Shown one piece after another: positions 3,701 through 20,426 of a DNA stretch of 36,154 bases (within the stretch, counting starts at the first letter, position 1; every line of letters starts with the position of its first letter). The position numbers and the translations under genes were made by a program. The DNA is from a virus, in IMG/VR virus record IMGVR_UViG_3300042935_001093, positions 1 through 36,154 of that record. One strand, given 5' to 3'. Under the pieces are notes generated by a model. It had not been told where the DNA came from and made no database searches. It saw nothing but the letters and a program-made list of their open reading frames with translations.

Positions 3701-5117
3701 CTACATTTACGCCGAGTCTTTGACCCTTTTTTACTTCAGGAATTTGTGCTGCTGCATTTGATGTCATAAGACCAATATCAAATCGAAGACCAAATTTTGC
3801 ATCTGATATATTTGCATCAGGGTTCGTTATGTATGCCATTGCTTCAACGCCGCTTTGAAGTGGGTTCTCCCGTGGGTCATCTGAAATCATTCCGGTAAAA
3901 TCAATACTGTTGATTTCTTTTGCTACATGAGGGTCTCTGAGATATGTTTCAAGAACACGATTAAGAACACCTCTTTCCGTTGCTAAGACAGTCTTTTCTG
4001 TAATTCCTTTTTTCTTTAAGAAATCGCGTTCGTCATCACTTAATGCCGCGAACTTGGCTTTGACATTAGAAAGGTCATTGGATATTTCGATATCCCATAG
4101 CCCCATTTCTTTGAGTTTGCGGAATGCCATGTGTAGGTGTAGGTTTTGGGCTCGTTCCTCTGGTGTTACGTCAATGCCAAGTTCTTTTATAAGGTTGTCA
4201 ACAGCCCCTTCCATTTCCGCCATGCGAGCTTGACCACGTGTGCGAGCATTCTTGAGCCATCTTGCTTTTGGTCTTGCTAATTCTTCCCTATAGGACCTAG
4301 CGTCAAGTATGAAATTTCCAGATTCATCAAGAAGATGTCTTCTTCCAAATCCAGTTGCTCTTTGATGTTCCCACCAACCACCAAGGGACTCTAAACCTCT
4401 TTGTGCAATTGCCCTAATTTCTCCTGCGGATATAGCGAAGCATGTGCTTCCAAACTTGTCTGTAAATTGATTCGCTTGAGGCGTGCCCGGTGGGCACCGG
4501 AATTTTCCCAAGTCGTCCACCACCACCTTGAATTTTTTTGCGGCTCTTTGTGCGAGACCACCAGTGGGATTTGTTTCACGAATTGAACGACCAATTGATT
4601 TAACTGATTCAGCATTCTGTTCTTCAACTTCACGTTTGCTCAGTTTTCTTTTTGGTTCTCCATCTTTATCAACTTCGTATACATCAAGTGATACTTGTGG
4701 CTTTTCCATTTCAAGACGAACTGCCTCTTGAAAATTTGTTGCTGTAGTTGGTGTTGTTTTTTCAACCCAACCAAAGTTTGCATTTTTGTTTAAACCTTTT
4801 CTGACACTCATCGGTGGGAAAAGGTTGAGTTCCATTCCCGGACCACCCTTGGCAGAAGGGTCATATCTCCAACCATCTTGGTTCTTTATTCCGGGGAGTT
4901 CTTGTTCTTGTTCCTTCGGTTGTTTGTCTTGATTTTTTTGACCGACGGTCTTGCCAATTCCCTTAACCATGATTTCATCACTATTGGAGATTGACTTTAC
5001 TGAAAGTTCAAGCCCTTGAATAAAATCAGCGACGGCTTCTTCCAACCTGTTCTGGTCGTGCCCCATAGCACGCTGAGAGATGATAAACCGATTCATTCGC
5101 TGATTATTGCTGTCCAT
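795..5117 (-). CDS. Large multidomain head-associated protein with zinc-metallopeptidase motif (1,440 aa)
   Basis: This is a long polyvalent-type protein in the head operon. Around residues 208-228 is a motif of the form RCPPGTP, about four variable residues, FTDKFGSTCF, a Cys-flanked signature I associate with actinophage capsid-region proteins. Residues 518-522 read HEIGH (3552-3566), the zinc-binding HExxH of gluzincin/metzincin-like peptidases. A helix about 90 residues later carries ELSAELYAL, whose Glu could be the third ligand. A beta-rich stretch near 780-880 ends in MLPPGRIVITG and resembles the last strands of ADP-ribosyltransferase folds, but the usual ExE pair is not obvious. Residues about 1130-1300 (GYVVH, DIELILRPEVSGRTAYGFGRG) form another conserved-looking module. 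The C-terminus is a charged helix. Thirteen bases separate it from the upstream gene. It is probably packaged or injected, and is comparable to MuF-type fusion proteins. The peptidase motif is seen; the remainder is inference. Confidence 0.8.
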   Translation of the reverse strand: MDSNNQRMNRFIISQRAMGHDQNRLEEAVADFIQGLELSVKSISNSDEIMVKGIGKTVGQKNQDKQPKEQEQELPGIKNQDGWRYDPSAKGGPGMELNLFPPMSVRKGLNKNANFGWVEKTTPTTATNFQEAVRLEMEKPQVSLDVYEVDKDGEPKRKLSKREVEEQNAESVKSIGRSIRETNPTGGLAQRAAKKFKVVVDDLGKFRCPPGTPQANQFTDKFGSTCFAISAGEIRAIAQRGLESLGGWWEHQRATGFGRRHLLDESGNFILDARSYREELARPKARWLKNARTRGQARMAEMEGAVDNLIKELGIDVTPEERAQNLHLHMAFRKLKEMGLWDIEISNDLSNVKAKFAALSDDERDFLKKKGITEKTVLATERGVLNRVLETYLRDPHVAKEINSIDFTGMISDDPRENPLQSGVEAMAYITNPDANISDAKFGLRFDIGLMTSNAAAQIPEVKKGQRLGVNVEGAKTEEERAAAIADFVASQDMFAGGMAAAIAVDGRVGKGVHTAAHEIGHVIQMMQWKKVMRAKYSNKQLSEMTSQEIMNSMKELGDGIDMADLNVTLKSLEAVAILGGKYPLSEYEKDGITQLWAIELSAELYALRDMDIIQGDDVDAALEWMDRTAKAKDSTHRANTRKRQMALVEKEMSKPLMDGDRPDFPSDEDTPKTPKKPPTKFVGKKDADEFGKKTRRSAIKKLAEEEGGAIERIGDPVDTRVASLISANPAGDILAIHKDNKRLKRMGVIPDKFDINEGSVSEQVEHTLIPTLSALDKTKLPGNLVVRFQPKSTGGEGEIISIPDLRSFQLEHDDLGLPPGTVSIELGTDARGILVPSSPFDSSVDESGKFGRVMLPPGRIVITGTDADGRVTARLIDQETSSQSLQRMIDNWPAKGDSKFEDGILRREKASVQKLVDNHNEKIRASGGETLPDGRSNPILAREIRKNNTDIVDRVRRNGGKPTRPDREYVDGLASNADYASSGFDDALGPVSTPIERRIDRDKLFEKMLADIGNEELWKHPKIRDYIDPSSINEDTFSQVEQMVFDLHDTIDRRPRVRTDSERLLQDFDLDMTDIPKIQPYDGSGNPDIQKEIDRKRRFEEIFSSSGMARKNAVEYHSRIGIHPDTPDEDRPVSGYVVHKSQRDMTVNALKKKGIVAGDMPFEYESENTPYGNIGADGDIELILRPEVSGRTAYGFGRGPDQQTRPVWMNSDDPDDIMDALLHPTAQNYQARFANALISTEDNDLGSFLNTDSVRPPKSSPDYETEIDKFNADLSGQQPLGAHIMGGYKKEEISAVVHPWSKIQSSSKDMDISDAIQQEPISEKLSRLGFSPEEIQYFYSLNGNSLGSINTSAMQQLRAYRKSQEISDRYKKMGIPEVQFSHKHGMDMLSPRAYSLSNQDEGDVEDILRTRIQTEIDDELKAALKKIQKTRNELAEIKI

Positions 5118-5130
5118 TGGACTCGCTTAA

Positions 5131-6513
5131 TTAGATGTCTTGTGATTCGTCGCTGAGGAGTTGAAATTCAATGAGTGAGCGCTTGAATTCTTCGTCCTCG
5201 ATATTTGCAGCATCATCTTTCTGGCTCATCACCCAGCTTGAAGGAATTAGTTTTTCAAGACCAAGCGATTTTGCACGCTTCATGATGTGACGCTTTGTCG
5301 CCTCTTTGTCTTTTGCTCTACCGAACGCTTGAATCGCATTCTTTAAATCGCCTTCGCTCTTGATTGGGTACGAACCATCTGGAAGAGCCAAGCCACTATT
5401 GGCAAGTTCTTCACGACTCTCGTCGGAGAATGCTCTCTTTAGTGCGATTTCAGCCGCTTCAGCCTCAATCTCTTCGGCTTCTTCTTGTTCGTACTTGTCG
5501 TAGCCAAGAACTTCGCCATCAAGAGAAACGAAAACGTCATAAGACTTACCGTCAAGAGCTTCAATTTCAACCGCATACGAATCAATCCCTTCAAATGAAT
5601 CCGGCTCAATGCTAATAACTTCGCCTTCAATTGACTTTGTGGCAATATCTCCGGCTTCGTCAAATGTTACAAGAAGTAATTGGTCTGACTTGGTTTGAAT
5701 ACTTCCATAACTGTCGGTCAAGCGATGACCATGAATCTGTCCGGTTGTTCCATTGATGAATACATCAAATGTTTTTCCATCTTTTCTCTGAACACCGACT
5801 ACATACATGTCTGCATTTGCGACGTAACCAGAATCAACTATTTCACCCTTGACTAGAGTCTGTGCATAACCCTCTGCATGTAATAGGGTCATCTGACCCT
5901 TTGTCCCCATGCAACCACCTGGGCACGTAGCGCATGCTGGTGTTCCGCCAGGATACACCTTGCTATCACTTGCGCACTTGTATCCGCCCGCACCTGCATC
6001 AATGGATTTAATTCCCATCTGTGAAAGACGTGCTTGACGGAATTTTTGCATCATTCCAACTTCTTCGTCTTCAAGCAATTCTTCTTCTTCTTCTGGCTCT
6101 TCCTCGGACTCATCTTCGTCAGCCATTTCGCCTTCAGCATTTTCTTCCGCTGCACGTGCACCCTCTGGCATTGACTCTTCTTCTTCTTCCTCTTCATAAG
6201 GAACTTCAGCAGTCTCATCATCTTCGGTCATTGCGTCTTCCATCGCGCGCGGGCGAGGCTTCTTTTTCTTTGGCTCATCCATTGAAGCCATCGCCTCATC
6301 GGCAGCCTTCATGTCAAGAGCTTTTTGAAGCAAGTCGTACTCTTCGGCACGAAGAACTTTCATCTCAATTGGGAGTGCACCACATTTACCGCATACTGGC
6401 GAGCCAGCACTAAAGCCGCATTCTGCTGAGCCAAGTCCTTTTGCGCACTTAAGGACATTGCCCTCTGCATCAACACTGACACCGGTCACTTGATTCGGGC
6501 TATTTGAGTCCAT
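5131..6513 (-). CDS. Acidic Cys-containing head-region protein with PepSY-like and DUF6582-like segments (460 aa)
   Basis: Start ATG at 6513 is preceded by AAAGGA at a suitable distance. Residues about 23-45 hold four Cys in a knuckle-like pattern (C..C then VCGKCG). Residues 95-155 are an extremely Glu/Asp-rich linker. A second Cys group (ACATCPGGCMG) lies near 195. Two similar beta segments follow (KTFDVFINGTTGQIHGHRL and SYDVFVSLDGEVLGYDKY), resembling PepSY-type repeats. The region near 375-430 (LALPDGSYPIKSEGDL, then AIQAFGRAKDKEATKRHIMK) matches the module I know as DUF6582, common in phage capsid-assembly proteins. It sits directly downstream of the protease gene, where scaffold or capsid genes normally lie. 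A scaffold or decoration role is plausible; I see no HK97 major-capsid signature. Confidence 0.75.
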   Translation of the reverse strand: MDSNSPNQVTGVSVDAEGNVLKCAKGLGSAECGFSAGSPVCGKCGALPIEMKVLRAEEYDLLQKALDMKAADEAMASMDEPKKKKPRPRAMEDAMTEDDETAEVPYEEEEEEESMPEGARAAEENAEGEMADEDESEEEPEEEEELLEDEEVGMMQKFRQARLSQMGIKSIDAGAGGYKCASDSKVYPGGTPACATCPGGCMGTKGQMTLLHAEGYAQTLVKGEIVDSGYVANADMYVVGVQRKDGKTFDVFINGTTGQIHGHRLTDSYGSIQTKSDQLLLVTFDEAGDIATKSIEGEVISIEPDSFEGIDSYAVEIEALDGKSYDVFVSLDGEVLGYDKYEQEEAEEIEAEAAEIALKRAFSDESREELANSGLALPDGSYPIKSEGDLKNAIQAFGRAKDKEATKRHIMKRAKSLGLEKLIPSSWVMSQKDDAANIEDEEFKRSLIEFQLLSDESQDI

Positions 6514-6590: not shown

Positions 6591-9500
6591 CTATTCTGAA
6601 CGGAACTTATCAAATTCTTCTGAACTAATTCCCAGCTTCTCCAAGAGCAGTTGTATCTGTGCTGGGCTCATGGAAAGTGGGTTTCTCCCAGTTGCCTTGC
6701 CAGATGACCGTGGGTTGTTTATGAAGTTCTTTGCAGTAGAGATTGATGGGCGACGACCCGTGACTTCGGCAATTGCCTCAACCACTTGTTGTGGGAACCC
6801 TCTTTTGCCTCTAAGTGAGTCAAAAGCCTGATTACTAAAGACATCCGCCAGTGGCATGCTGTCGGTTCTTCTAACAGAAGTAGCAATTTCAGTTGCATCG
6901 CCGTATAGGTCAGAAGCCTTCTTCTTGGACTTCTTTGCCTTCAATAGGGCATCAACCTCTCCTGCGGTGATACCACGGCTCAGAATTCTCTTCCAAGTCG
7001 TTTCACCGAATATGTCAATGTTTTCCTTGATAATCGAATACCGTGAAGCATCCCTGTCAATTCCAACCTCTTCAAGAACTGCACTAGCGTCTAGGTAATT
7101 TCTTGACTCTGTTGACCTTGGGGCGCGGGTACCGGGGACATCTGGAGCCATATCACCAGTATCTGGGATGTTTGCTTCAATGTCTATTGGTTTGCCAGAT
7201 TCGTCATAATACGAGAGTGGGTCTTTTCCTACGCCCCATAGATTTCTGTCACCATCAACTTGGATACGAAGCCTGTCAAGAAGGTAGACATCTCGTGTTC
7301 GTGCACCTGGCTTGCGCATCTTTCGCGCCACATCAACTGGCACGCCTAGTTCTGCGGCAAGTTGCTCGTCTGTCATGTTCTGTTTTCCGCCAAACCTTCT
7401 GGCAGCACGATTGACGATTGGCTCAAATCCCCACGAGCGACCACCAGAACTCTCTTCACCAACGACGATGTCGCTTGGGAGGATGTCAATTGGTTCGCCT
7501 CGTGAACCAAACCCATACTCTGATGCATCTGGTCCGTTACGGCGTTTGCCTGGTCGCTTTTTGGAGCGCAATCTATCTCCGTCAACATAACTCTGTCTAT
7601 CTTCTGGGGTCCAATTGGTTTTTGGCACACGTGGACGCTTTTTGTCGCCACGGGAGGCAAGACCGCGCGTATTTCTGACGTATTGGTCACCTTGCTTGCG
7701 CAATGTCATCCTATTGAGTGCATCCCACTGCTTGTCTGACAGTTCACCATTTCTGTCATACTGTCCAACGACACTTGTCGTGAACCTATTACCCATTCTT
7801 CTGGCAATAGCGATAATTTCATTCTTCTCTTCTCGGCTGAGATTCATTCTGCTCGCAAAACCATCTTCTGGAGATGGTCCTTCTGGCATCATGTCTTCTT
7901 GTTCCATCATGTAATCTTGGGCGGCATCATAAGCCCAGTCCATTGCATCAAGTTCGTCTGGGTCCATTGAGTCCCCACCAGAAGCAAGACCGTTTTCATA
8001 GACCCGACCGTTTTCGTCAAGTAATGAACCAGTTTGTGGGTGGTCAAATGCTTGAGCCCATACAACCTTGTTGTCGTCACTCAGCATTGAAGGCTTTAAT
8101 GATGCTTGGTATGAGGTTTCGCCGAGTTCGTCAGCATAAACATTGTCCCACTGACCAAGGACTCTTGTCTTTCCCTTGTCCTTGCCACTAGTGATGATTT
8201 GCTCTGCTCTTACGAAGTATGTGTCGCTTCCGCCGTCGTAACCAACAATCACTTGCTGATTTCTATTTACAGGAAGAACCATCTCGTTATTGCGCTTCTT
8301 TGCTCGTGTTCCAGAGATTGCCATGAGATTTCCACGACCGATTTGGGAGAGTGCTGTTCTCATATCAAATTCACTTGGCTCATATCCACCAGATGTCGGC
8401 CAGTCGCCACGAGATGCAAGACCTTGAACGGAAACTGCTGGGTTTCCAACAACAGCGATTTCTGGTGTTTCAAACTCAGCCTTTTCACCGTTAGAGAACT
8501 TACTCTTTGCATTAGGTGAAATATCCAAGACATAGTTGACTGCCTTTTGGGCATCGGTCATTGCTTTTTCCAATGCCTCTGGGTCGTCCTTCAACTTCTT
8601 CAACCAAGATGCGAGGTACGGTCCATGATTCTCTTGAATGTTTGGTTCGATGTTGTGCGAAGCCATGAACATTGCAGATGCAATTTCCGCTACGAGTTCT
8701 TCGTATGCATATTCAGGTGTTCCGAAGGTGCCCATTTGTTCTCTTCCGAGACGACCATTTCCACCAGTCCAGTGCATCAATTCATGTGCAACTGTTGAGT
8801 AGTAGCTTCTCGCATCATTAAAGTTCTCAAAGTCTGGAACTTGAATAAAGTCGCCACTTGGTTGGAAGAATGCCTTATCTCCACCATTTTTAATAACAGC
8901 AGGAATCTCGGAAATAGTTTTCTCCAAGTCGGCAACTCTTTCTGCTTCTGGGAGAATTTCTTTCTTATCAAAATCATCAGGCATTCCATCAATTTGCTTA
9001 AGGTTGAATACCGTTGCAACCTTGAACATGATTCTTCCGTCAGTGGATGTACCATCGGCTTTTTCTTTGCCTTTAATAAACATCGGAACAAAGATTGTCG
9101 TTCCCTTTTCGCCCTTGCGAACCTGACCGCCAAGACCCTGCCACTGGTTGTATGTTGCCCACTTGTTTGAATCAAACCCACGAGCATCAGCAATTACGGA
9201 TAGGAAGAACCAGTTTGAACCTGAATACTTTCTTCCAGTCGTGCCGTTTTCTGGCATTCCCGTTCTTCTCCATGGAAGTTTCCACTTACCAAGGTTTTCA
9301 GAATCTTCTAGTGCAGCAATGAGTTGTTTTTGCATTTCTGCAAAAACTTCTTCCTTGGTCTTTCTCTTTACACCGCTCTCTCCTCTTGAAGAAAATCCAC
9401 GAGGGGTCAGTCCAAAGACATCACCATCTGAATATCCTCCAAGAACCGAGAGCGGGTCAACTTTTGGGCGGTCGCCGCCGGTCTTTGGGGTGGAAGGATT

Positions 9501-12500
9501 TGTTCCTAAGCCAACGATTTTTCTGCGCTTATTTTCAAGGTCGGTTGCTAGTGCGGCCATCTCAAAGGCATCCATGTTCTTCGCAAACAGTTTTTCAAAA
9601 TCGTCTAACGATAGACCTAAATCAGCGAGCATTTCTTCAATTTTGTCTTCACTCAAACCTGGATTACTTCTTTCAAGCATCTTTCGTGCCGACTCGTAAT
9701 AGTCATCCTTGGCTTGTTTGAGGTTTCGTTCAAGGGCAATCAAATTTGCCTTTGCCTCTCCGTCGTAAATTCTTCCTATTTCTTTGTCAATTTCTCCCAC
9801 TGTTGCACCATCACGGTCCATTTGGTTAAAGTATGCGCGATTGTTATCAATCATGTCTTCGGCAACTCTTCTTTTTTGACCTGTTGTCATCTTGGACCAC
9901 GGTACGGTATTGATTGATGGCTTATATTCTGCCGAATCATCCCAAGTTCCACCCCCAGCTGGTGGGAGAGCTCTGTCAAGAGCATTGAAGATTGAAGCAT
10001 TATCATCAAGCGGTGTGTCAACAGACATGGCAGATTGGTAATCCCTATCCAACTTTGATGTTCCGCCGCGTGACGCGAATCCTTCGCCAGCAGTGCGCCC
10101 GCGTTTACGTTCCCAATATGCCTCGTTGTCTAGTTCGCGTTGCCTTTCGATACGAATATCTTCATCTAGTTTTTTTCGCTCGTCGTCTGGTAGTCCATTA
10201 ATGAAATCAGCGTAATCTTCGTAGGTGAATTCAGTGTCTTCGTAAAAGCGGTCTATGTCTTCGTCGGTTGCATAGTTTCCACCATCAACAAATCCTTGTG
10301 CATAAGAATCAAGTAAGTCTTCGCTTGGTTCACCATAGGTCGCATCGTATATTTCTTTTTTGGTAACCCAATCATTGAGGGTATTAACTGTTGCATCATC
10401 AATATCGTCGGCTGTCAATTTTTTACCACGTGAAGCGAATCCGTCTGGTGTGATGTCATTTACATCGTAAGCGAATGATGCTGCTCGGTCAATTGCTTGC
10501 TCCAAAGCCGCACTTCGCTCTTCAATTCCACCGTCATGATTTTTAGAAAGTTCTTCAATGTATGGAACTGCACCGCTAAATTGCCTTAGGTACTCTCTTT
10601 CACCAAGGATTTCTCTTGCCACTTTTTCTCTTTCATTGATGAAATCAAGCAACTCATCATTGGTTCTATCTAATGCATCAGATGCATCTGCTTCATCCAT
10701 TCCTTCAACATCTGGCATCATCGGTACACGAACACGCTTGCTTCTTGGAGCAGCTGGCTTGGCAAATATCTTGGGTCCGTAGAACTCAATCAATTCGTCA
10801 ATCCTTTGCTTTCGCTCTTCTGGGTCAGTGATTTCGGCAAGGGATTCTCTGTCATCAGAATGCATTCTTGAAGGAACAATCCTTTGACCAGTACTGCTCT
10901 CGTTGATTGATGCACGAGAGGCGAATCCATCACGACCATTGCGTCGTGCATTCACCTTCTGAATATCACCAGTCGTGTATGCACGCTTGTTATAGTTTGT
11001 GGCCTTGCCATTTTCGTCAAGGTAGAAACCGTTCTCGTTTGTGCGGTTTGTGATTTTTGGATTTGACCGCTCAGCTGGTTCTCCCATTGAGTAGAAAGCT
11101 GACTGAGGAATTGCTTCTTCTCTTCTAAAGTCAAAGTCATCTCGCACTCGGCGCAATGTTGCACCACGGCTATCTGATGCTTCAAGGTCGTCAACTACTG
11201 ATTGTGGGACATTTTCATAGATGTAGAACTCGCCGGTTCCTTTTCCATCTCGTCCACGGTATTCGACGCGGAGTTCACGCTTATCTGGGTCGTACTGAAC
11301 TCTGTTAAGTGCGGCGCTAGAGCCAACGTCAACGTTTCTGTAACCCATTCCAAGCGACTCTGCTTGCATTTCCATCATTGCGATTTGACGGTCATCGTAT
11401 GCTCGTGCTTTTGCATCAGCAGTGATTTCGTCAGCTGATGTTCCGCTTCCTGCGTTGATTGCTGAATCTACTGCTCGTGTAAAGTAGCGACTCTGCTCGT
11501 CTGGCCCAATTTCGTTCCAATGCGAGTCAATCTGTGCCTCATATGAACCTTCACCAAGTTCTGCACTTGCATCTGCATCTCTATCGGTTCTGTCTGAGCC
11601 ACTTGCCCTTCGTACCGACTTGGATGCTTTAATTTTGTTGATGACTTTACCCTTTGAACTTGAACTAGCAAGTTCTTGAGCTTCGTCAGAAGTTACGCCT
11701 TCATAGATGTAACTTCCACCAGCATTGCCATCCTTGTCCTTGAAGGTAACAACCAGTTCTTGGGTATTCGGGTCATAGTACGACCCGTAAAGAGCGGCAC
11801 TTCTGCGAACATCAATGTCCTGAATTTTTGATGGCTTCTTCCCTGCGGATGCAGGCTTAGGTGAGCGAGACTCAAAAATTTGAATCATTCTTTCTTGGAC
11901 TAGAGAATTTGGTTCGCCGTATTCGTCGCTAAGTTCGTACCCATCAAAACCATCACGCGCAAGACTACGTCTAGCTTCATCTGCCAAGTCAGTCAAATCT
12001 GATTCAGACAAACTTCCTATTTCGTCACGGAGTTGCAAAACTTGTTCAAGCATGTCGTCTGATTCGGAATCTCCACGACCATTGATTGCATCAATCGTGC
12101 TTGACTTTGTAATCTCAACATCATGATTTCTCTTGACATCATTGATTACTCGACCAATTGAACTAGAACCTGCTACTTCGTTGTCAAAGTAATCAGGTGA
12201 AACATCTGAGTATGTGTAGTACCTTGCTTCCCCACCAGTTTGACCTGGCTTAAACGCAACATGGAGTTCACGAGTTTTTCTGTCATAGTGAACTGCTTCA
12301 ATTGCGCTTGAGTTTGGAGTCTCAACAGTGTCAAAGCGTGAACTGCCGCGTGATGCGAATCCACTCGTTGATTTACCACTGCTTGAGAAGAGTCTGTCTT
12401 CGGGGTAATCAGCATCGTAACCATCTACGCTTGGAATCTCATCAGTATCATACTCAAGGTCTTTGTAGTTACCTTTGGCAATAGATTCTTCTCTTGAAAT

Positions 12501-15500
12501 AATAAAACTCATTACATCATTGGCTTCTTCAAGAACCTCCGCCAAATCGTCGCCTTGTTCATCTTTCTTTTCACCGGCACGAATGAGTTCGTCAACAAGA
12601 TTAATTGTGTCACGAATCTTTTCTTTCTCATTCTCTGACTCCCACAATGAGGAACCGTCGTAATGTTCAAGAGCATCAATTTCCTCAAACCTTTTGGCGA
12701 GTTCGTTCAAGTCTGACTCAAGACCACCCTCTCCGTCGTCGCCATAAAGGTTGATTGAGTTTGATTCCAAGTCTTGAATTTTTGCCCAAATGTCACTTGC
12801 TTCATCAACCTTTGCTAATTGTGCGGTGCGATACTCGCTATTTCTTTCAATATTTTCTGTTGCTTCAGAAATTGCTTCATCTAGGCTCTCAAGGAGGTCA
12901 ATGTCGTCGTCATCATCTGTTACATCGTAAATTGTTGTACTAGAGTCAATCTTTACACCATTGGCTTCTGCAATTTCTCTAGCGATTCGACTGCGTGTTT
13001 CGATTAGTTCTTTGCGCTGTTTAAGCAAGTCAGCATGACGAATGTCCATGTTTGAAGAGTTGCCGTTGTCTAGTGATGGAATATCCAACAAGTCAGAAAC
13101 TTCTTCCTTGTATTCATCAGTTGATTTACGGCCACCACGTGAGGCGAATCCAGAGGTGTCATTATCCTCCATGATGTATCGAAGTTCATCATCAAGTGCG
13201 CTGAACTTTTCGTTCTTGTATGCATGTGATTGCCATGCAGATTCAAGAACCTCAAGAAAATCTTCGTCGCTTAAATTGGTTCTTTCGCTAATTTGTGAAT
13301 CAGCAAAAGCCTCATTTTTTTCAGATGGTGTCAAACCATTCCAGTTTTCTACTAGAGCTTTTGAGTATTCACGTAAAGGTTTTGGAATTCTTGAATCATC
13401 CTCTCGTGCGCCAAGTCTGTCTGAGATGAGTTCTTGTAATTTTGCTGCTGATGGTGGTTTACTTCCGCGTGATGCAAGGCCCATGTCGCCAGCATCGCCA
13501 AAGTCAACAAAGTCTGGATGGATTTCTGGGTTGTCCTGCAAGAATTCGTCATAATCAAAACCACCTTCTTCCAATACATTTTTTACTATGTCCCATCGTC
13601 CTTGGTCATATAGGTCGTCTTGAACTTGTTCAAATAACTTTTCTTTTTCCTTACTAGTGAATTCATCGTATGGACGCATTTCTGGCGTGGTATCACCACG
13701 TGAACCAAATCCGCGCTGACGCTCGTTGTAATTATCCGCCGCTGCATCAAGGTAGTTGTCGTAGGCAAGAGCCATTGCATACAGGGAATCGCCGTCTGCT
13801 TCTTTTAGATACTCGTCATGGATTGCATCATTTTCAATCCAGTAGTCGGCAACTCTTTCTGCTTCATCCCTATCTGCACCGCTCCCCTTGAGCGCTTCAA
13901 TTGCTTCTTTTCTGAAGTCTTTTGCAAATCCGTATTTCTCTGGATTCGCCATGAGGTCTTCAATCATCGCCTCAGAGGAATGGTCGCGTGCGCCTGGGCG
14001 TGGGCTACCAGGGTTGTCTAGATAGTACTGTGCGTCAAGTTCTCCGAGCAAATCATCATTGGAATCAAGAAATTCTTGGACATCTTCTGGCAACCATTTG
14101 CCGAGGTCGTTATTCTTTCCAGGAACATCAAGTCTGTCGCCTCGTGAGGCGAATCCACTACCCCGAAGATTTGCATAGCTATTAACGTTGTTTAGGACTT
14201 CGTTGATTGCAAAGCGTTCGTTTGGCTTTATGGTTGGTCTCATCTTATAGAGGTTGGCGAGTTTTCTGATGGCGGCTTCCTCTTGTGGGCTTACCTTCCC
14301 ATCACCTTTTCTCACCTTGTCCAGTCCACTCATTGCCATTCTGTACTCACTCGGTGAGAACTCGTCAGAAAGGAAGTCTCTGTTCCCTCTCTGTAGAATT
14401 CGTTCGCCATCATTTGGCATACGTGAAGCAAAGCCATCTGTTGGCTTGCCATCTCTGCTCTGCGCCTTACGTACGAATATGCGTTCAATTGCATTAGCGC
14501 GAGTCTCACGATTAGAGACACCCTCTGCTTCGTAGTCGCGCCCAATAACGCCAGCGTCACGTTGGAGAAGAACGAATCTTGCCTCGCCGTATTCGTTGCG
14601 TGCTTTTTCAAGTTCCTTCTCAAGTTCAGGAAGTGACATTTCCATCAATGAGCGGTAGTCGGATTCCATCTTTTCGTTGCGTCTAGAGTCCTCTTCGTTG
14701 AGTCTAGGGTCAAGGACACTCGTCCTCTTTGCGGGTAATAGGTCGGCAATAAATTCTTCATCAGACAGGTCTAATCTTGCCTGTTTTTTGACCTTCTCTG
14801 CTTGCTTTGCTTTTCTTTGTTCGTTAAGAAGCAGTTTCTCAAGTTGAAGCCGTGTTTCAACACCCTCAAATTTATCTTCGCGTCCAAAGAAGTTAAACTT
14901 GTCATCATTCGTAAAACCTCTGCTGGTCTTGATTTTTTCGAGGGCATTGACGGACTCACTTAGATTCCTAGAGGCACCCAGTTCATTGAGTTCTTCCTTG
15001 CTGACATCTTGGAGAACGTAAGTCCGAATTTCTGTGCGTGTGTATTGAATTGCCCCACTTGCATCTGGCTCCCCCGCCTTCCATCCTCCACCGGTGGAAA
15101 CAAATAACTCTTTGCTTTTATCGTCGTAAATAAGGTCATTAACAATTTCATCGCTTAAATTAATTTCTTCGATGGCTCCATCATCTACGACGCCTCTGAC
15201 TCTACCTGGCTTGATTCTACTCAAAGAGGCAAAGCCATCTACTTCGTCATCTCCTGCATCATCTGCTGCCATGTACAATTCGTCGTATGTATTCTCGTCT
15301 TTGCGCAACCGTTTGACAAATGCATTTGCTTCACTGCGACTCATTCGGTAATTTCTCATCACCTCTTGCTTGACTTCTTCGTCAGACATTTGCGTGTAAT
15401 CCATGTAGTCAACGCCATACTCAGAGTCAAGGTAGTTTTCAAAAGAACGTAATTCTTCCTTCGGTGTTGGCTTGTCGGTTAGTGAGGCCCCGCGTGAGTC

Positions 15501-18308
15501 AAATCCGCCACGGCTTCTTTCGTAGTCTTCGTAGTCGGGTTCGTACTTGGAATTTTGAGCATCAACCATGTAGTCGTATTGGTCGTCTACGAGGTCACTG
15601 AAGAAACGTGAAGCTATTTCATCACTTGCTATTGCCCTAATGGCATCGTCATCAGACTGGTATCTGTCAAATAAATCTTTGAGTTCAGAATCACTCAGTG
15701 GTTCTTTGCTTCGATTATTAAAACTTTCCAACTTGTCAAATTCAACTTCACCATCACCGACATGGTCAATTATGTATTCTTCAATAAACGAGTCATCAAG
15801 TTCGTCGTCATCTGGGTCAATGCCCATATTTGAACCCCAAGGTCCATTACCCTCACCACGCGATGCAAGACCACGAGCACTATCACGACCTTGTTCAAGG
15901 ACTAGGTCTTGCTCATCTGCTGAGAGCTTGTCAAAGTCATCTTCTGCGAACATTTCGCCTTGACCAGCAGCTCGCTGACGGTCACGCTTTGCCTTTGGAG
16001 TGTCAAGGTCTGCTGGATTTACTAGGTCAGCAAACTCTTTATCAAGTTGACCGTAGAAGCCTTCTTCGTATGATGCAAAAATATCTTCAGCATCTGCTTG
16101 AAGTTTTGAATCAGTTGACCAGTCGCCCTCAGGAAGAAGGTCACCAATTCTGTCGCTCCAAAGATTTTCCCCGCCCCACTCACTGGTTAGTGGACCATTT
16201 CCGTCCTGAAGCAAAAATGAAACAATTCCATTTTCACGAATGAAGTCTTTATCTTCATCACTTAGATTCTTCATGTTGTCTGCAAGAATCTGAGCCCTTC
16301 CAGATGCAATGTCTGAACCACGACGACGTGAAGTATCAATTCTGTCCTGTTGTTCTGGCGTTACATCACCACGACTACCGAATCCACGCTTTGAACGATT
16401 TTTTTGATATTCGTCAAGGAATTCTCCATATTTGGGTTTCTCGTAGCGTGGATTATTGCGACCACTGAAACCATATCCGAGACGAGTGTCTTCTGCAGCA
16501 GTTCCTTCTGGCAAGATGTCACGAACTCCACTGACATCAAATGTTTCTTTGCCGGTTGATTCTGTTCTCTTTGGTGGAACGAAATCTTTTCCGAACTGTT
16601 GCTTGTAGGCATCACGACGTGAGAACTCATGCGAAAGTTTGAAGAGTTCTGCATCTGTCTTTTCTCTGTCTGAACCGGTTTGTCCACGACGAGCAGCAAC
16701 AAGTTTCTGACCTTCTGCACGGAGACCATCTTCTGACATGTCCCAGTACTTTGCGAGTCCTTCGTTTTCTGGTCGACGATTAGCAAGGAACGAAATGTCG
16801 TCCATCGTGCGTGGTTGCAGTTCTCCTGCAGCCAATGCTTCTTGACGCTCCGTACCAGAGAGAAGACTCGGGTCCTTCGTCGGCTTCTTGCCGGTTCTGA
16901 TTGTCGGCTTGTCAAGTAGCTCATTTGAGTCACGATTCTTTCCACCAATATCTGGAAGATTCATGTCTGGCTTCTTAATAGGAATGTACGGTCTCTGGAA
17001 TGCAGTACCGTCTTGCGCAAATCCGTCGTTGTCGCCGTCAATTGCAAATGGGTTGAACGACTGTGAGAGGGTTCTTAGGTTCCCAACCGACTGACCGATT
17101 GTTTGACCAATCGCCTTAACTGCGGTCTGGAGCGCATCAATTGCTTGTGCAGAGATGCTTCCGTTTACAATAATTCCATTGTCTGAATCAGTTGTTGAAA
17201 GATTGTGATACTTGAATACCGGCTGAAGCATGCTCTTGGCTTGCACAATGTGACCCTGAGGGATTTCAATAAGGTGTGCATATGCAGACTTACCAATACC
17301 CACTTGACCACCAAGCATTGTGTTCATTTCGTCTTGGTCGTCATCTCGGTACGGAATCTGTTGTGGTTGCATTGGAACCATTGATTCATCTGCTGGCTTA
17401 ACTTCAATCTGTTGTTGAACTGGTGGCTTGTTTTGATTTCCAGAATAAGCTTCTGGCTTGCCAAACATGAATGTGTTGTAAGCGTCTGGGGTGTGGTAAC
17501 CAACTCTGTACATAGAAACTTTTCCGTCAGTTGTTGTTCTGCGGAAAACAATGAAACTATCTGTTGCTTCAACAATGTCAACCTTTGAGCCAGTTCTTTC
17601 ACTGAGCTCTGATTGGATTTTCTGTGTCTTCTCAGCATCTAATGGTTGTGCAAGACCTTCTGCAAAAATATCAAAAGGCTCGTCTTGTTCTTGTTCCTGC
17701 TCCTGTGGTGCTGCAATGACAATCATTCTTGGCTGTTGTAGTTGTTCACCCATCATTGACATGCCTGGGATAATTGGCATCATGTGATTCTTTGAATCGC
17801 TCTTAACGGAGATTGTTCCAGTCAATTGATTAGCACCATGAAGCACTGGTGACACTTCGTAGAGCTCTACTTCTCTGAGAACATTTGCTTGTTGTGCTGT
17901 ATCAAATGCACCATTGATTGTTTTGTAACCAATAGACCATTCCTGCTCTTCTCCAAAGAATGCAACGCTCGCAAATGCTTCTTTGCCTTTTTCTGACTGA
18001 AGGTTAAATTGAACCTTTGCATACAAACCGCCAATTCCAGCATTTTTCATTTTTGCTGGGAGACGTGGGTCGCCTGGTGGAACTTCGTACATCTCAAGGA
18101 CTTTTCCAATTGGGTCATTCCAACTGTGAGCCCATACAACTCTTGGCTTACGACGGGTGAGGCTCTTGGCAAACGCACCAGTTACAACGATGTCACCAAC
18201 TGAGTCCTTGTTGCCAATTCCTGCAACGAAACATTCGACAATTCCTTGCAGTTCGTCAAGAGCGATTGCTCCGCTAGCTGCTGATTTGAATTCAAATTGT
18301 TCGTTCAT
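6591..18308 (-). CDS. Giant prohead protease-polyvalent fusion protein (about 3,905 aa)
   Basis: Residues 1-170 are an HK97-type (U35/S78) prohead protease with His61 in WAHSWNDPIG and Ser125 in EWSIGYK. A linker follows with an acidic DGDNDG loop and GFAQDG (17007-17024). From residue 642 on, the chain is divided by 19 short motifs around G-[FL]-A-S-R-G into mostly acidic, helical blocks of about 37-470 residues. Recognisable blocks are a divergent KTSC-like unit (about 1054-1127), three KTSC domains (1999-2066, 2168-2234, 2329-2396), an ArdC-like unit (2980-3263, HELMH at 3175) and an AISG-core domain (about 3312-3405). The last 300 residues contain HTH-like helices (EQLAAELGVPVDVARKM). I chose ATG 18308 because the protein then starts like other proteases, GGTGG lies upstream, and a putative promoter -10 (18336-18341) would put transcription start downstream of the alternative GTG at 18347. 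The protease probably matures the capsid; the extension may be processed and packaged. Confidence 0.9.
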   Translation of the reverse strand: MNEQFEFKSAASGAIALDELQGIVECFVAGIGNKDSVGDIVVTGAFAKSLTRRKPRVVWAHSWNDPIGKVLEMYEVPPGDPRLPAKMKNAGIGGLYAKVQFNLQSEKGKEAFASVAFFGEEQEWSIGYKTINGAFDTAQQANVLREVELYEVSPVLHGANQLTGTISVKSDSKNHMMPIIPGMSMMGEQLQQPRMIVIAAPQEQEQEQDEPFDIFAEGLAQPLDAEKTQKIQSELSERTGSKVDIVEATDSFIVFRRTTTDGKVSMYRVGYHTPDAYNTFMFGKPEAYSGNQNKPPVQQQIEVKPADESMVPMQPQQIPYRDDDQDEMNTMLGGQVGIGKSAYAHLIEIPQGHIVQAKSMLQPVFKYHNLSTTDSDNGIIVNGSISAQAIDALQTAVKAIGQTIGQSVGNLRTLSQSFNPFAIDGDNDGFAQDGTAFQRPYIPIKKPDMNLPDIGGKNRDSNELLDKPTIRTGKKPTKDPSLLSGTERQEALAAGELQPRTMDDISFLANRRPENEGLAKYWDMSEDGLRAEGQKLVAARRGQTGSDREKTDAELFKLSHEFSRRDAYKQQFGKDFVPPKRTESTGKETFDVSGVRDILPEGTAAEDTRLGYGFSGRNNPRYEKPKYGEFLDEYQKNRSKRGFGSRGDVTPEQQDRIDTSRRRGSDIASGRAQILADNMKNLSDEDKDFIRENGIVSFLLQDGNGPLTSEWGGENLWSDRIGDLLPEGDWSTDSKLQADAEDIFASYEEGFYGQLDKEFADLVNPADLDTPKAKRDRQRAAGQGEMFAEDDFDKLSADEQDLVLEQGRDSARGLASRGEGNGPWGSNMGIDPDDDELDDSFIEEYIIDHVGDGEVEFDKLESFNNRSKEPLSDSELKDLFDRYQSDDDAIRAIASDEIASRFFSDLVDDQYDYMVDAQNSKYEPDYEDYERSRGGFDSRGASLTDKPTPKEELRSFENYLDSEYGVDYMDYTQMSDEEVKQEVMRNYRMSRSEANAFVKRLRKDENTYDELYMAADDAGDDEVDGFASLSRIKPGRVRGVVDDGAIEEINLSDEIVNDLIYDDKSKELFVSTGGGWKAGEPDASGAIQYTRTEIRTYVLQDVSKEELNELGASRNLSESVNALEKIKTSRGFTNDDKFNFFGREDKFEGVETRLQLEKLLLNEQRKAKQAEKVKKQARLDLSDEEFIADLLPAKRTSVLDPRLNEEDSRRNEKMESDYRSLMEMSLPELEKELEKARNEYGEARFVLLQRDAGVIGRDYEAEGVSNRETRANAIERIFVRKAQSRDGKPTDGFASRMPNDGERILQRGNRDFLSDEFSPSEYRMAMSGLDKVRKGDGKVSPQEEAAIRKLANLYKMRPTIKPNERFAINEVLNNVNSYANLRGSGFASRGDRLDVPGKNNDLGKWLPEDVQEFLDSNDDLLGELDAQYYLDNPGSPRPGARDHSSEAMIEDLMANPEKYGFAKDFRKEAIEALKGSGADRDEAERVADYWIENDAIHDEYLKEADGDSLYAMALAYDNYLDAAADNYNERQRGFGSRGDTTPEMRPYDEFTSKEKEKLFEQVQDDLYDQGRWDIVKNVLEEGGFDYDEFLQDNPEIHPDFVDFGDAGDMGLASRGSKPPSAAKLQELISDRLGAREDDSRIPKPLREYSKALVENWNGLTPSEKNEAFADSQISERTNLSDEDFLEVLESAWQSHAYKNEKFSALDDELRYIMEDNDTSGFASRGGRKSTDEYKEEVSDLLDIPSLDNGNSSNMDIRHADLLKQRKELIETRSRIAREIAEANGVKIDSSTTIYDVTDDDDDIDLLESLDEAISEATENIERNSEYRTAQLAKVDEASDIWAKIQDLESNSINLYGDDGEGGLESDLNELAKRFEEIDALEHYDGSSLWESENEKEKIRDTINLVDELIRAGEKKDEQGDDLAEVLEEANDVMSFIISREESIAKGNYKDLEYDTDEIPSVDGYDADYPEDRLFSSSGKSTSGFASRGSSRFDTVETPNSSAIEAVHYDRKTRELHVAFKPGQTGGEARYYTYSDVSPDYFDNEVAGSSSIGRVINDVKRNHDVEITKSSTIDAINGRGDSESDDMLEQVLQLRDEIGSLSESDLTDLADEARRSLARDGFDGYELSDEYGEPNSLVQERMIQIFESRSPKPASAGKKPSKIQDIDVRRSAALYGSYYDPNTQELVVTFKDKDGNAGGSYIYEGVTSDEAQELASSSSKGKVINKIKASKSVRRASGSDRTDRDADASAELGEGSYEAQIDSHWNEIGPDEQSRYFTRAVDSAINAGSGTSADEITADAKARAYDDRQIAMMEMQAESLGMGYRNVDVGSSAALNRVQYDPDKRELRVEYRGRDGKGTGEFYIYENVPQSVVDDLEASDSRGATLRRVRDDFDFRREEAIPQSAFYSMGEPAERSNPKITNRTNENGFYLDENGKATNYNKRAYTTGDIQKVNARRNGRDGFASRASINESSTGQRIVPSRMHSDDRESLAEITDPEERKQRIDELIEFYGPKIFAKPAAPRSKRVRVPMMPDVEGMDEADASDALDRTNDELLDFINEREKVAREILGEREYLRQFSGAVPYIEELSKNHDGGIEERSAALEQAIDRAASFAYDVNDITPDGFASRGKKLTADDIDDATVNTLNDWVTKKEIYDATYGEPSEDLLDSYAQGFVDGGNYATDEDIDRFYEDTEFTYEDYADFINGLPDDERKKLDEDIRIERQRELDNEAYWERKRGRTAGEGFASRGGTSKLDRDYQSAMSVDTPLDDNASIFNALDRALPPAGGGTWDDSAEYKPSINTVPWSKMTTGQKRRVAEDMIDNNRAYFNQMDRDGATVGEIDKEIGRIYDGEAKANLIALERNLKQAKDDYYESARKMLERSNPGLSEDKIEEMLADLGLSLDDFEKLFAKNMDAFEMAALATDLENKRRKIVGLGTNPSTPKTGGDRPKVDPLSVLGGYSDGDVFGLTPRGFSSRGESGVKRKTKEEVFAEMQKQLIAALEDSENLGKWKLPWRRTGMPENGTTGRKYSGSNWFFLSVIADARGFDSNKWATYNQWQGLGGQVRKGEKGTTIFVPMFIKGKEKADGTSTDGRIMFKVATVFNLKQIDGMPDDFDKKEILPEAERVADLEKTISEIPAVIKNGGDKAFFQPSGDFIQVPDFENFNDARSYYSTVAHELMHWTGGNGRLGREQMGTFGTPEYAYEELVAEIASAMFMASHNIEPNIQENHGPYLASWLKKLKDDPEALEKAMTDAQKAVNYVLDISPNAKSKFSNGEKAEFETPEIAVVGNPAVSVQGLASRGDWPTSGGYEPSEFDMRTALSQIGRGNLMAISGTRAKKRNNEMVLPVNRNQQVIVGYDGGSDTYFVRAEQIITSGKDKGKTRVLGQWDNVYADELGETSYQASLKPSMLSDDNKVVWAQAFDHPQTGSLLDENGRVYENGLASGGDSMDPDELDAMDWAYDAAQDYMMEQEDMMPEGPSPEDGFASRMNLSREEKNEIIAIARRMGNRFTTSVVGQYDRNGELSDKQWDALNRMTLRKQGDQYVRNTRGLASRGDKKRPRVPKTNWTPEDRQSYVDGDRLRSKKRPGKRRNGPDASEYGFGSRGEPIDILPSDIVVGEESSGGRSWGFEPIVNRAARRFGGKQNMTDEQLAAELGVPVDVARKMRKPGARTRDVYLLDRLRIQVDGDRNLWGVGKDPLSYYDESGKPIDIEANIPDTGDMAPDVPGTRAPRSTESRNYLDASAVLEEVGIDRDASRYSIIKENIDIFGETTWKRILSRGITAGEVDALLKAKKSKKKASDLYGDATEIATSVRRTDSMPLADVFSNQAFDSLRGKRGFPQQVVEAIAEVTGRRPSISTAKNFINNPRSSGKATGRNPLSMSPAQIQLLLEKLGISSEEFDKFRSE
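8095..8375 (-). other. Small conserved domain with AISG core
   Basis: Right after the GLASRG at 8406 comes TALSQIGRGNLMAISGTR, a strand region (MVLPVNRNQQVIVGYDGGSDTYFVRA) and NVYADELGETSYQASL. This pattern (IGRGNxxAISG, LPV, DTYxV, ADExGExxYxAS) matches a small stand-alone protein family I associate with actinobacteria and their phages, of unknown function. Finding it as one cassette of the giant protein supports the view that blocks between motifs are autonomous domains and that the host is an actinobacterium. Confidence 0.6.
8520..9372 (-). other. ArdC-like antirestriction unit (N-terminal domain plus zinc peptidase)
   Basis: Immediately after the GFSSRG motif at 9381 the chain reads as an ArdC N-terminal domain (KWKLPWRR, NGTTGRKYSGSN, WATYNQWQGLGGQVRKGEKG), normally a single-stranded-DNA-binding module. 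It continues into a peptidase-like domain with HELMHWTG (HELMH at 8772-8786) and a downstream YAYEELVAEIASAMF helix supplying the usual Glu ligand. This is the complete two-domain ArdC layout, seen in plasmid antirestriction proteins and in polyvalent phage proteins. All metal-binding residues expected by eye are present. The next motif (GLASRG, 8406) closes the block. Confidence 0.85.
11120..12314 (-). repeat. Three tandem KTSC domains
   Basis: Three related units lie at about 12314-12111 (SSAIEAVHYDRKTRELHVAF ... IGRVINDV), 11807-11607 (SAALYGSYYDPNTQELVVTF ... SKGKVINKI) and 11322-11120 (SAALNRVQYDPDKRELRVEY ... SRGATLRRV). Each has a short Ser/Ala start, a Y-D-x-x-x-x-E-L-x-V strand, a Gly-rich turn, a Y-x-Y strand and a terminal S-x-G helix, the order of the KTSC family. 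They are clearly diverged from one another, so the duplication is old. All three sit within the single 472-residue block between the motifs at 12345 and 10911. Confidence 0.8.
14929..15149 (-). other. Divergent KTSC-like domain
   Basis: The segment VNDLIYDDKSKELFVSTGG, then TYVLQDVSKEELNELGAS, then SVNALEKI follows the order of a KTSC domain (small-residue start, Y-D-x-x-x-x-E-L strand, Y-x-V-x-x-x-x-x-x-E-L, terminal helix) but has a longer insertion between strands. Its resemblance to the three clearer copies further along supports the call. The function of KTSC domains is not firmly known; they occur alone and fused to lysyl-tRNA synthetase and phage proteins. Confidence 0.5.
17799..18308 (-). 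other. Prohead protease domain of the giant protein
   Basis: The first 170 residues follow the HK97 prohead protease pattern throughout: an opening strand (GIVECFVAGIGNKDSVGDIV), GAFAKSL, the His-bearing VVWAHSWNDPIGKV, the Ser-bearing EQEWSIGYKT, and the closing ELYEVSPVLHGAN. His61 and Ser125 are the expected catalytic residues. Known family members digest scaffold and capsid delta domains inside the procapsid and then themselves. Free-standing members are usually about 180-250 aa, so this one carries an exceptionally long extension. Confidence 0.93.
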
Positions 18309-18335
18309 TTTCCACCAATCAAATAGAGTGTTTAA

Positions 18336-18368
18336 ATCATAAGACACTTATTTGATTGGGGACTGCAA
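18336..18368 (-). promoter_or_regulatory. Putative promoter of the giant protease gene
   Basis: On the minus strand TTGCAG (18368-18363) is followed after exactly 21 bases by TATGAT (18341-18336). The same layout occurs before the RuvC-like gene (24804) and the sheath gene (31008). The -10-like box lies 28 bases before the chosen ATG at 18308 and after a terminator-like hairpin that closes the portal gene, a sensible place for a promoter. The spacing is longer than for ordinary sigma-70 promoters, so a special sigma or activator may be involved. Confidence 0.45.
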
Positions 18369-18377
18369 CTAATCGCC

Positions 18378-18414
18378 AAAAAGTTTATGTTTCACTATTT
18401 ATATATAGTGAAAC
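18378..18414 (-). terminator. Terminator-like hairpin after the portal gene
   Basis: GTTTCACTAT (18389-18398) and ATAGTGAAAC (18405-18414) form a perfect 10-bp inverted repeat with a 6-base loop. The minus-strand transcript meets this stem at the last base of the portal stop codon and then a run of five U (18382-18378) six bases past the stem. The stem is A+T-rich and so weak by ordinary standards, but its position at the stop codon supports termination or partial read-through. Confidence 0.55.
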
Positions 18415-20426
18415 TAGTAAATTGAATTCCAAGCATCGTTCGTCTCTTCAAAAGCAACTTCATGACGAACTTTTCCATGAAGGTTGGCGTACATCTCAAT
18501 AATGTCCCTCTTCAGCGACTCATGTCGGGCTTCTTCGCCTGGAGTGTTGACTGCATTGATGATTGCATTCTTTACTTGACCAAACATGTCGGAGTTAAGT
18601 TGCTTGATGTTTTCAATATGTCGGTAGACCTTGACATTGATTTCAAGTTCGTTCCATGTTGCATTAGGTTGCTTTACTTCAATGGCATCTTTAACGATTG
18701 CTGATAGCACTGGCTTGATGTCTTCCTCTAGTTGTCTGTTCCATACATCTGGACTGAGGATTGATTCGGCTTCAAGAGTTCCAGCAAATAGTGCCTTGCG
18801 TGATTTGACTCCATTTGCCTTTTCCATCACGACTCGTTGCTGTCTTTCCAGAACACGCTCAAGTGAGCGGTCTAGGATTTCAACCCATCTATCCATCGTC
18901 CTTGCAGGCTCTTCTGATTTGTAACTCATCACCGAACTAGCAGAAGCCATTCCCTCTGGGAGTGGGGCAGTTGCTGTCTCGGGAGCGCCAAGTGGTGGGG
19001 ACATTTCCCCTGGGGGTGCACCAGCGCCACTAGTTGCAGCAGCCAAAGCACCAGCCATAGTGTTCGGGTCAAGACCTGATGGTGGAGCGCCCTCAACCGG
19101 TGGCATACCTGGAGGCATTGCACCCTCTGGCCCTGGTGGCATTCCTGGAGCACCAGGTGCGGCACCAGCCATCATTGGTGGCTCTTCCATCTTCTTCTTT
19201 GTGTTGGCGATTGGTGTGAGGTTTGGATTCATCAACAATGAGTCAGCCAAGTCTGCATCAACCTCTTTGCGACCGCTCATCATTCGGTATTCGTTAACGC
19301 TGATGAGACCCTGCGAGAGTTCGTCTTTCAAATATCTTTCGCGCTCTTGCTTGTAGAGCATAAGAACTGGAACAAGGCTTGTGTCAAAGTCAATGTAATG
19401 AACATCATCAAGTTCGTCAAGGGCACGAGCAATCGGTTCTAGGTGGGGAAGCATTGTCTCGGTCCAGAACACACGAATTTCTTCGCTTGCATTACTGAAG
19501 GTTCTTCCAGCCGCATTGCCGATTACCGTCTCTGGGACGCCGAATGCTGCAAGAATTTCTTCTTTCGTAATTTGTCGCATTTGAATATAGGCGGCATCAC
19601 GTGGGCTTGCGGAAACATCAACAAAGTCAACGCCATCGTCGGCAGACAGGACCGTAGTTCTTCCGGTGGTAGCGAGATTGCCTCTAAACCTGTTCTTTAG
19701 TTCTTCCTTGTCGTCATCATCAATTTCGCCCTTAACTACAAGAAGGCTTCCTGGTCGACCATCATTCATCAAAAAGTTTCTGTTATATAGTTTTGCAAAG
19801 TTTTCAATTTCAATTGCAATACCGGCTGATTCCATTGGCGTTAATGACAGGTAAGGGTCAAGTGGGTGTGGTCTTCTAACCCAGACAACATCCTCTGGTT
19901 TGAGGATTACTGGCTCACCGTTTGGCATCATCACCTCGTACCCAGAAACAAATTTCTTTGGGTCTGGGATTGGAGAAGTTGCTTGAGGCGGGAGAAGGTT
20001 TAGACCAATAATGTCGCCGTTCCTGCCTCTCACCTTTTCAATGAATGCTCCACGGGTTCCAAGAAGTAACTGTGATGAAAGCCTGTAGCGAAAGATAAAC
20101 GAGTTTTCACCGATGTTGGATTTAGTGTTTAATACTTGAAGAAGTGTTGAGTCTTCTGCTTTTCTACCAACAATGACTTCACCGTCCGGTGAATTGTCTT
20201 TACGGAGAATAATTGGGAGTCTTGCTTGGTTCCCAGCGATTACGTCAATACACCTAGCCACCCATGTGACTCGCTGCATTCCTTCTCTGTAGGCTCGCTC
20301 AATGTCCCAAGAATCCTTGTATGGCTTACCAACGAAAGATGAGTCATTGGCTATGGGCGCGCCGGGTCCAATCCCCTTGGAGTTGATATTATTGAGGGCT
20401 TTATTTGAGCCTGTGTTCCATGCCAT
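18414..20426 (-). CDS. Phage portal protein (670 aa)
   Basis: The portal forms the dodecameric ring at the capsid vertex through which DNA is packaged and where the tail attaches. Residues 1-400 follow the HK97/lambda-type portal family: ERAYREGMQRVTWVARCIDVIAGNQ at the N-terminus, then LLLGTRGAFIEK, PEDVVWVRRPHPLDPYLSLTPMESA, LLVVKGE, and EEILAAFGVPETVIGNAAGRTFSNASE near the end of the core. A long Pro/Gly/Ala/Met linker (about 420-510) precedes a helical C-terminal extension with many charged residues ending in AFEETNDAWNSIY. The extension makes it longer than the usual 400-550 aa. ATG at 20426 follows the stop of the upstream small gene by two bases. It is transcribed away from the terminase. 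Confidence 0.93.
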   Translation of the reverse strand: MAWNTGSNKALNNINSKGIGPGAPIANDSSFVGKPYKDSWDIERAYREGMQRVTWVARCIDVIAGNQARLPIILRKDNSPDGEVIVGRKAEDSTLLQVLNTKSNIGENSFIFRYRLSSQLLLGTRGAFIEKVRGRNGDIIGLNLLPPQATSPIPDPKKFVSGYEVMMPNGEPVILKPEDVVWVRRPHPLDPYLSLTPMESAGIAIEIENFAKLYNRNFLMNDGRPGSLLVVKGEIDDDDKEELKNRFRGNLATTGRTTVLSADDGVDFVDVSASPRDAAYIQMRQITKEEILAAFGVPETVIGNAAGRTFSNASEEIRVFWTETMLPHLEPIARALDELDDVHYIDFDTSLVPVLMLYKQERERYLKDELSQGLISVNEYRMMSGRKEVDADLADSLLMNPNLTPIANTKKKMEEPPMMAGAAPGAPGMPPGPEGAMPPGMPPVEGAPPSGLDPNTMAGALAAATSGAGAPPGEMSPPLGAPETATAPLPEGMASASSVMSYKSEEPARTMDRWVEILDRSLERVLERQQRVVMEKANGVKSRKALFAGTLEAESILSPDVWNRQLEEDIKPVLSAIVKDAIEVKQPNATWNELEINVKVYRHIENIKQLNSDMFGQVKNAIINAVNTPGEEARHESLKRDIIEMYANLHGKVRHEVAFEETNDAWNSIY

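Follow-up and report, generated by a model that had tools for sequence, protein, structure and literature searches.

The stretch of DNA analysed here (the window) is the whole of an IMG/VR virus record of 36,154 bases. It carries on the minus strand a giant open reading frame (ORF) that runs uninterrupted from a GTG over positions 6591-18347 (3918 aa); an alternative ATG at codon 14, with GGTGGAAA ahead of it, gives 6591-18308, the 3,905-codon frame of the initial annotation. By ORF calling and Pfam the frame encodes a protease followed by motif-separated cargo modules, and PHROGs concordantly placed a head maturation protease and an anti-restriction protein in it. The same ORF is present at 100% identity in records from other metagenomes (L001, L003 and L004), and the first relatives search found ORFs of 3772-4315 aa that are 70-78% identical to it (L005-L007), so an assembly artefact is excluded. 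A nearest-DNA search of 50,697 phage records returned nothing that matched the window.

The giant ORF is flanked by the portal gene and other head genes, all encoded on its strand. The portal gene (18414-20426, minus; Pfam and PHROGs) is directly upstream, and past the giant ORF come a 460-aa acidic, scaffold-like ORF without the motif (5131-6513, minus) and a 1440-aa ORF with a HEIGH zincin signature (795-5117, minus). Towards its C-terminus (LKNAIQAFGRAKDKEA...) the 460-aa ORF resembles the C-terminus of the protease ORF of Gordonia phage GMA6 (L017:12586-14040); therefore, the extension seems to have separated the protease from what was once its C-terminal part. The coding strand switches near 20.5 kb: the portal gene and the head cargo genes are read from the minus strand, those for terminase, recombination and tail from the plus strand, and the GC skew reverses sign at the same place. 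A PAPS-reductase/DndC-like protein followed by a ParB_N-like protein is encoded at 27304-28978 (plus), with another ParB_N protein at 25784-26545; these genes are possibly a DNA-modification or nucleotide-chemistry cassette.

A Peptidase_S78 prohead protease domain (residues 37-186 in GTG numbering; 17790-18239, minus; Pfam E 3e-9) occupies the first ~190 residues of the giant ORF, and His61 and Ser125 (ATG numbering) show no variation when it is aligned with cultured Gordonia and Brevibacterium phages, as the initial annotation had proposed for an N-terminal prohead protease with these two residues. Assignment to the HK97-type proteases agrees with the S78 His/Ser pair and with a head cluster that includes a portal and an HK97-fold major capsid protein (MCP). 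No solved structure matched the protease domain by sequence. Relatives were collected by a profile search with the protease domain, and 80 IMG/VR loci of at least 432 candidates were used. A giant fusion also occurs in a cultured phage, since Gordonia phage DalanDe gp27 (L018:16425-21326), annotated as a capsid maturation protease, is 1633 aa long and has its S78 domain near residue 1200, behind an N-terminal extension of ~1100 residues without Pfam matches.

Behind the protease, three KTSC domains (approximately residues 2013-2079, 2181-2243 and 2343-2396; three stretches within 11160-12311, minus) were identified; only the third was placed by Pfam, and the limits of the first two were read from the sequence. 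A complete ArdC-like module follows (8562-9344, minus), consisting of ArdcN (residues 3002-3114, Pfam E 9e-26) and MPTase-PolyVal (3141-3262, E 7e-38). The chains of relatives also hold UvrD, RNase_T and sigma-r4 domains.

The giant ORF contains 17 copies of the motif G[FL]xSR[GMA] plus one degenerate GLASGG, which lowers the count of 19 given by the initial annotation. All are on the minus strand: GFGSRG (copy 1, residue 655; 16368-16385), GLASRG (copy 2, 826; 15855-15872), GFDSRG (copy 3, 948; 15489-15506), GFASRM (copy 4, 1305; 14418-14435), GFASRG (copy 5, 1398; 14139-14156), GFGSRG (copy 6, 1546; 13695-13712), GLASRG (copy 7, 1623; 13464-13481), GFASRG (copy 8, 1733; 13134-13151), GFASRG (copy 9, 1996; 12345-12362), GFASRA (copy 10, 2474; 10911-10928), GFASRG (copy 11, 2636; 10425-10442), GFASRG (copy 12, 2756; 10065-10082), GFSSRG (copy 13, 2984; 9381-9398), GLASRG (copy 14, 3309; 8406-8423), GFASRM (copy 15, 3496; 7845-7862), GLASRG (copy 16, 3562; 7647-7664) and GFGSRG (copy 17, 3612; 7497-7514). 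Shuffled versions of the sequence hold 0.037 copies on average and never more than 2. When patterns were searched de novo, without the motif being supplied, GF.S and F.SR ranked first, with scores of 27-28 vs 9.4 or less for shuffles.

The copies of this motif and of its counterparts in relatives, hereafter tags, fall between modules. Across nine proteins, none of 106 tags lies inside a Pfam domain, vs 17.8 +/- 3.9 expected, and 32% of 471 ends of cross-lineage similarity blocks have a tag no more than 15 aa away, vs 13.9 +/- 1.7% with shifted tags. These two tests were used in place of a conserved-block test with long BLAST segments (127 vs 144 +/- 4.8), which is weak because such segments run through tags. 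The ArdC module begins 12 residues after copy 13 and is followed by copy 14, and among 18 lineages it has tags on both sides in nearly all. In an AlphaFold2 model built on the 18-lineage ArdC alignment, residues 44-330 of the stretch are folded, both flanking tags form unfolded ends with pLDDT under 50, and the model matches ArdC of plasmid R388 (6i89) in Foldseek at E 2e-18; one motif-to-motif segment is therefore a complete known protein. An earlier AlphaFold2 model (959 aa, 4 sequences) had a mean pLDDT of 38 and was left out.

Every giant chain yielded its own repeated motif in the de novo search. The spelling GFASRG is found in the window and in L026, L036, L037 and L051; LGSRS in L042; KLSSGR in L084 and L098; RFSSG in L038, L045, L055 and L094; SLSSG in L081 and L099; GLSSG in L092 and L064; and LSSGR in L058, L067 and L093, with LRSSG and GLxSST as further lineage spellings. 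The general form is [FL]-x-S, with the next residue mostly G, R, S or T. In many lineages the giant ORF holds 9-22 tag copies, and enrichment of [FL].S[GR] reaches z = 5-9 in most giant chains and is about 0 in most protease ORFs of about 1,000-1,300 codons. At homologous boundaries the spelling is converted: PEDGFASRMNLS and PSPEDGFASRMNLS of the window correspond to NGPLGSRMNLS and SSGNGPLGSRMNLS of L042, respectively, and a further set reads DASEYGFGSRG vs ASEYGALGSRS, SDEYRELSSGK and PSAEEFSSGR. In the tree of the protease domain the SR spelling forms one clade and the short proteases another, with the SG spellings elsewhere. Streptomyces phage Gilgamesh encodes beside its protease a 4624-aa hypothetical protein (gp48; L020:5979-19853) without Pfam matches and without the tag, which is perhaps another polyvalent cargo chain.

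The initial annotation had held that the codons of the motif vary between copies and that the peptide itself is conserved, and this stands between orthologues. At orthologous sites of the window and L005-L007, the G, S and R residues are 94, 93 and 90% identical, respectively, with flanks at ~70%, and the synonymous divergence of the motif codons (0.331) is like that of the rest of the gene (0.326). Within a genome the statement holds only in part, as codon identity between the window copies is 0.40 vs an expected 0.30 +/- 0.035; the copies are therefore mildly akin at the DNA level, and some may derive from one another. Such sharing is stronger in L042 (0.50 vs 0.23) and absent in L084 (0.293 vs 0.294). 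A by-product of module shuffling, with short DNA repeats seeding recombination, gene conversion keeping copies alike and the peptide itself functionless, would account for this codon sharing in L042 and the window and for an architecture that is mosaic at the tags, modules having been gained and lost between motif copies in the alignment of the window with L005-L007. We consider that explanation very unlikely, given the conservation of G, S and R over ordinarily diverging synonymous sites, the lack of codon kinship in L084 and the unrelated DNA flanking tag copies. As far as sequence comparison can tell, selection on the tag acts at the peptide level.

The spelling is a property of the genome and not of one gene. 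Spellings were counted in the protease ORF and in other ORFs of at least 600 aa of ten genomes, whole or in large parts, and the resulting matrix of spelling by genome is near-diagonal, with each count to be set against 0.3 or fewer expected. LGSR occurs 17 times in the protease ORF and 4 times in other ORFs of G009, LRSS 2 and 18 times in G012, GLxS[STR]T 3 and 21 times in G010, and GLSSG 10 and 12 times in G017; the spellings of other lineages are at or near chance in the large ORFs of these genomes. One flavour is common to 2-5 ORFs per genome. Homologues of the window's 1440-aa ORF in other lineages bear the tag of their own genome, as does the 2354-aa homologue in G017, where a 1104-aa ArdC ORF and a 1216-aa ORF with an exonuclease domain are tagged as well. 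In the window's own lineage the tag is confined to the protease ORF, save one copy in a neighbouring ORF of L005. Three genomes (G010, G012 and G031) have a short, unfused protease ORF, which in such lineages is about 1,000-1,300 codons long, and their cargo in separate ORFs, with the tag still present; therefore cargo need not be fused to the protease, and the signal must act in trans.

The tag is thus a peptide-level, lineage-specific signal, read in trans, at the module boundaries of head-cluster cargo chains. The initial annotation's proposal of a peptide-level signal between modules of protease-tied cargo is borne out by the lineage spelling in several ORFs, the avoidance of domains, the coincidence with module ends and the conservation of the peptide.

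In L092/G017 (L125/L126), frames of 2510 aa and 1104 aa overlap, sharing seven consecutive A (AGAAAAAAAGGGTAAG) near contig position 36261, soon after a tag. Gene fission at the tag was rejected as proof of module independence, as an indel or a programmed frameshift in the seven-A overlap is equally likely. A programmed frameshift there would carry the polyprotein on into ArdC.

The MCP gene is beyond the reach of the window and was found further downstream in relatives G001-G003 (PF05065, E 1e-50 or less). The protein is a homologue of the HK97 MCP by PDB match, has an N-terminal extension of ~95 residues and is presumably a substrate of the prohead protease. Lineages with LSSG spellings have QL[ST]S[RH] in the MCP immediately ahead of an SIG/TIG segment, the SR lineages (GFASR and LGSR) have QL[ET]S[IV]G at that site, and three lineages with an unfused protease (L044, L063 and L046) have no LxS there. 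The MCP was rejected as clean proof of cut-site identity, since the site differs between lineages. The mature HK97 MCP begins S-L-G-S. That of P1 begins S-V-A-A-E-M (PMC9024508), and both starts loosely resemble the small-hydrophobic-small pattern of the tag, a likeness that may serve as a lead only.

The full lineage tag is absent from the MCPs of relatives, which counts against cutting at the tags and agrees with its main rival, capsid loading without cutting, in which the cargo would be drawn in by tags that bind the portal, the scaffold or the inner face of the HK97-fold shell. By analogy with encapsulin targeting peptides, which are short linkers of loosely similar make-up (PLTVGSLRRGG, DGSLGIGSLKG; PMC7925596), such binding would fit the homology of the MCP to that of HK97 and the position of the tags in low-hydrophobicity linkers of head-cluster cargo ORFs (the hydrophobic fraction of the tag flanks is 0.189 vs 0.268). 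In G017 one copy lies 11 residues short of the C-terminal end of its ORF, where a cut would free nothing useful, although that end abuts the possible frameshift. Loading would need one or a few copies per chain, however, and the tags track module ends and recur every 100-400 residues or so, including in chains as long as 4000; we regard loading alone as possible but unlikely.

We infer instead that the reader of the tag is the prohead protease and that the signal is its cut site, and likewise that the cargo is encapsidated and injected. The giant ORF would be a virion cargo polyprotein in which the S78 protease is followed by host-takeover and anti-defence modules (KTSC, ArdC and others). The tag would be a recognition site read in trans, at or beside which the prohead protease would cut during capsid maturation, and the separate small proteins would stay in the head and be injected along with the DNA. 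The prohead protease is favoured as the reader because it is the constant partner and tag copies track modules, because in phiKZ, SPN3US and T4 a prohead protease processes many head proteins at short motifs, which vary from phage to phage, and because the MCP of the LSSG lineages has QL[ST]S[RH] before its SIG/TIG segment. One spelling recurs in all cargo ORFs of a lineage presumably because it follows the specificity of that lineage's own reader. Several observations count against cutting: some segments between tags hold several domains, as all three KTSC domains of the window lie between copies 9 and 10; the portal and scaffold-like ORFs examined are without the tag; the mild codon similarity of copies in one genome leaves room for a contribution at the DNA level; and no exact motif was found in the cultured relatives GMA6, DalanDe, Cantare and Gilgamesh, large ORFs included, nor any repeated tag by de novo search of the cultured relatives' ORFs. 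On balance, the reading that the prohead protease cleaves cargo polyproteins at the tags within the procapsid has about an even chance of being correct. The wider proposal of a genome-wide processing code, in which the protease evolves together with its cut sites in several cargo polyproteins, all 10-30 sites of a genome change spelling jointly from one lineage to another and up to 18 injected proteins are released per chain, is tentative and falls somewhat short of an even chance.

The cuts might also be made by another peptidase, either the MPTase-PolyVal or zincin domains of the cargo or a host protease after injection. Zincin domains are common in these ORFs, and Iyer et al. (2017) propose autoproteolysis by MPTase before or after delivery (PMC5512222). 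The giant chains of L092 and L064 are nevertheless strongly tagged with no MPTase match in the same chain (in L092 it is in a neighbouring ORF), a conserved host protease would leave the spelling of each lineage unexplained, and the ArdC of plasmid pSa, MPTase domain included, is transferred at full length (PMC5512222). Another peptidase is thus an improbable reader.

The tag allows the injected proteins of uncultured phages to be listed and delimited from sequence alone, and the segments between tags can be searched for new anti-defence modules. The lineage spellings are a ready-made test of joint change of a protease (or capsid) and dozens of sites. Should the tags prove to be cut sites, a single phage chain would deliver many separate anti-defence proteins. 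Polyprotein design is known from eukaryotic RNA viruses, and we know of no demonstration in tailed phages that many separate proteins are delivered in this way.

Among known systems, the cultured Gordonia phages GMA6 and DalanDe and Brevibacterium phage Cantare share the same portal, S78 protease and MCP families with the window but lack its repeated tag. The proteases T4 gp21, SPN3US gp245 and that of phiKZ are likewise herpesvirus-protease-like, with many head or ejected substrates and a short, degenerate, phage-specific motif (AXE, SXE; PMC5694885, PMC10052503); gp245, for example, acts after A-X-E in many head proteins, and the motifs differ between phages (PMC5694885). As here, a common short motif occurs in several head-cluster ORFs of one phage in T4 and SPN3US. 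Their substrates, like those of phiKZ, are individual proteins with one or a few cuts each, mostly removing N-terminal propeptides, whereas the chains described here have 10-20 putative sites each, located between modules, and T4 and SPN3US cut C-terminal to Glu, unlike the tag [FL]-x-S-[RG], which has no Glu. The P1 Dar proteins (DarA, DarB and DdrB) are also very large antirestriction cargo in the head, some processed and one with a capsid localisation signal; they differ in having a single such signal and separate genes, and the parts of the sources consulted describe no repeated tag (PMC9024508, PMC5512222). Cargo loading into an HK97-fold shell by short linker peptides is also known from the encapsulin targeting peptides, but these usually occur in one C-terminal copy, with no protease and no modules between copies (PMC7925596). 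The closest precedent is that of the polyvalent proteins, multi-domain chains (ArdC-N, MPTase-PolyVal, helicase and others) among virion genes, for which Iyer et al. (2017) proposed that embedded peptidases release domains and which they likened to polyproteins (PMC5512222). The giant ORF agrees with these in holding ArdcN, MPTase-PolyVal and three KTSC domains in one chain and in being encoded among virion genes, with packaging presumed, and departs from them in that its peptidase is N-terminal and not C-terminal, as their assemblin-like peptidases are stated always to be; the sections consulted describe no repeated inter-domain tag or lineage spelling (PMC5512222). The initial annotation knew of no characterised system of this form; the concept does have precedents, and a search of the open-licence literature found no report of the tag itself. 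Polyvalent cargo with peptidases was already known, and the new part is a lineage-specific, genome-wide tag.
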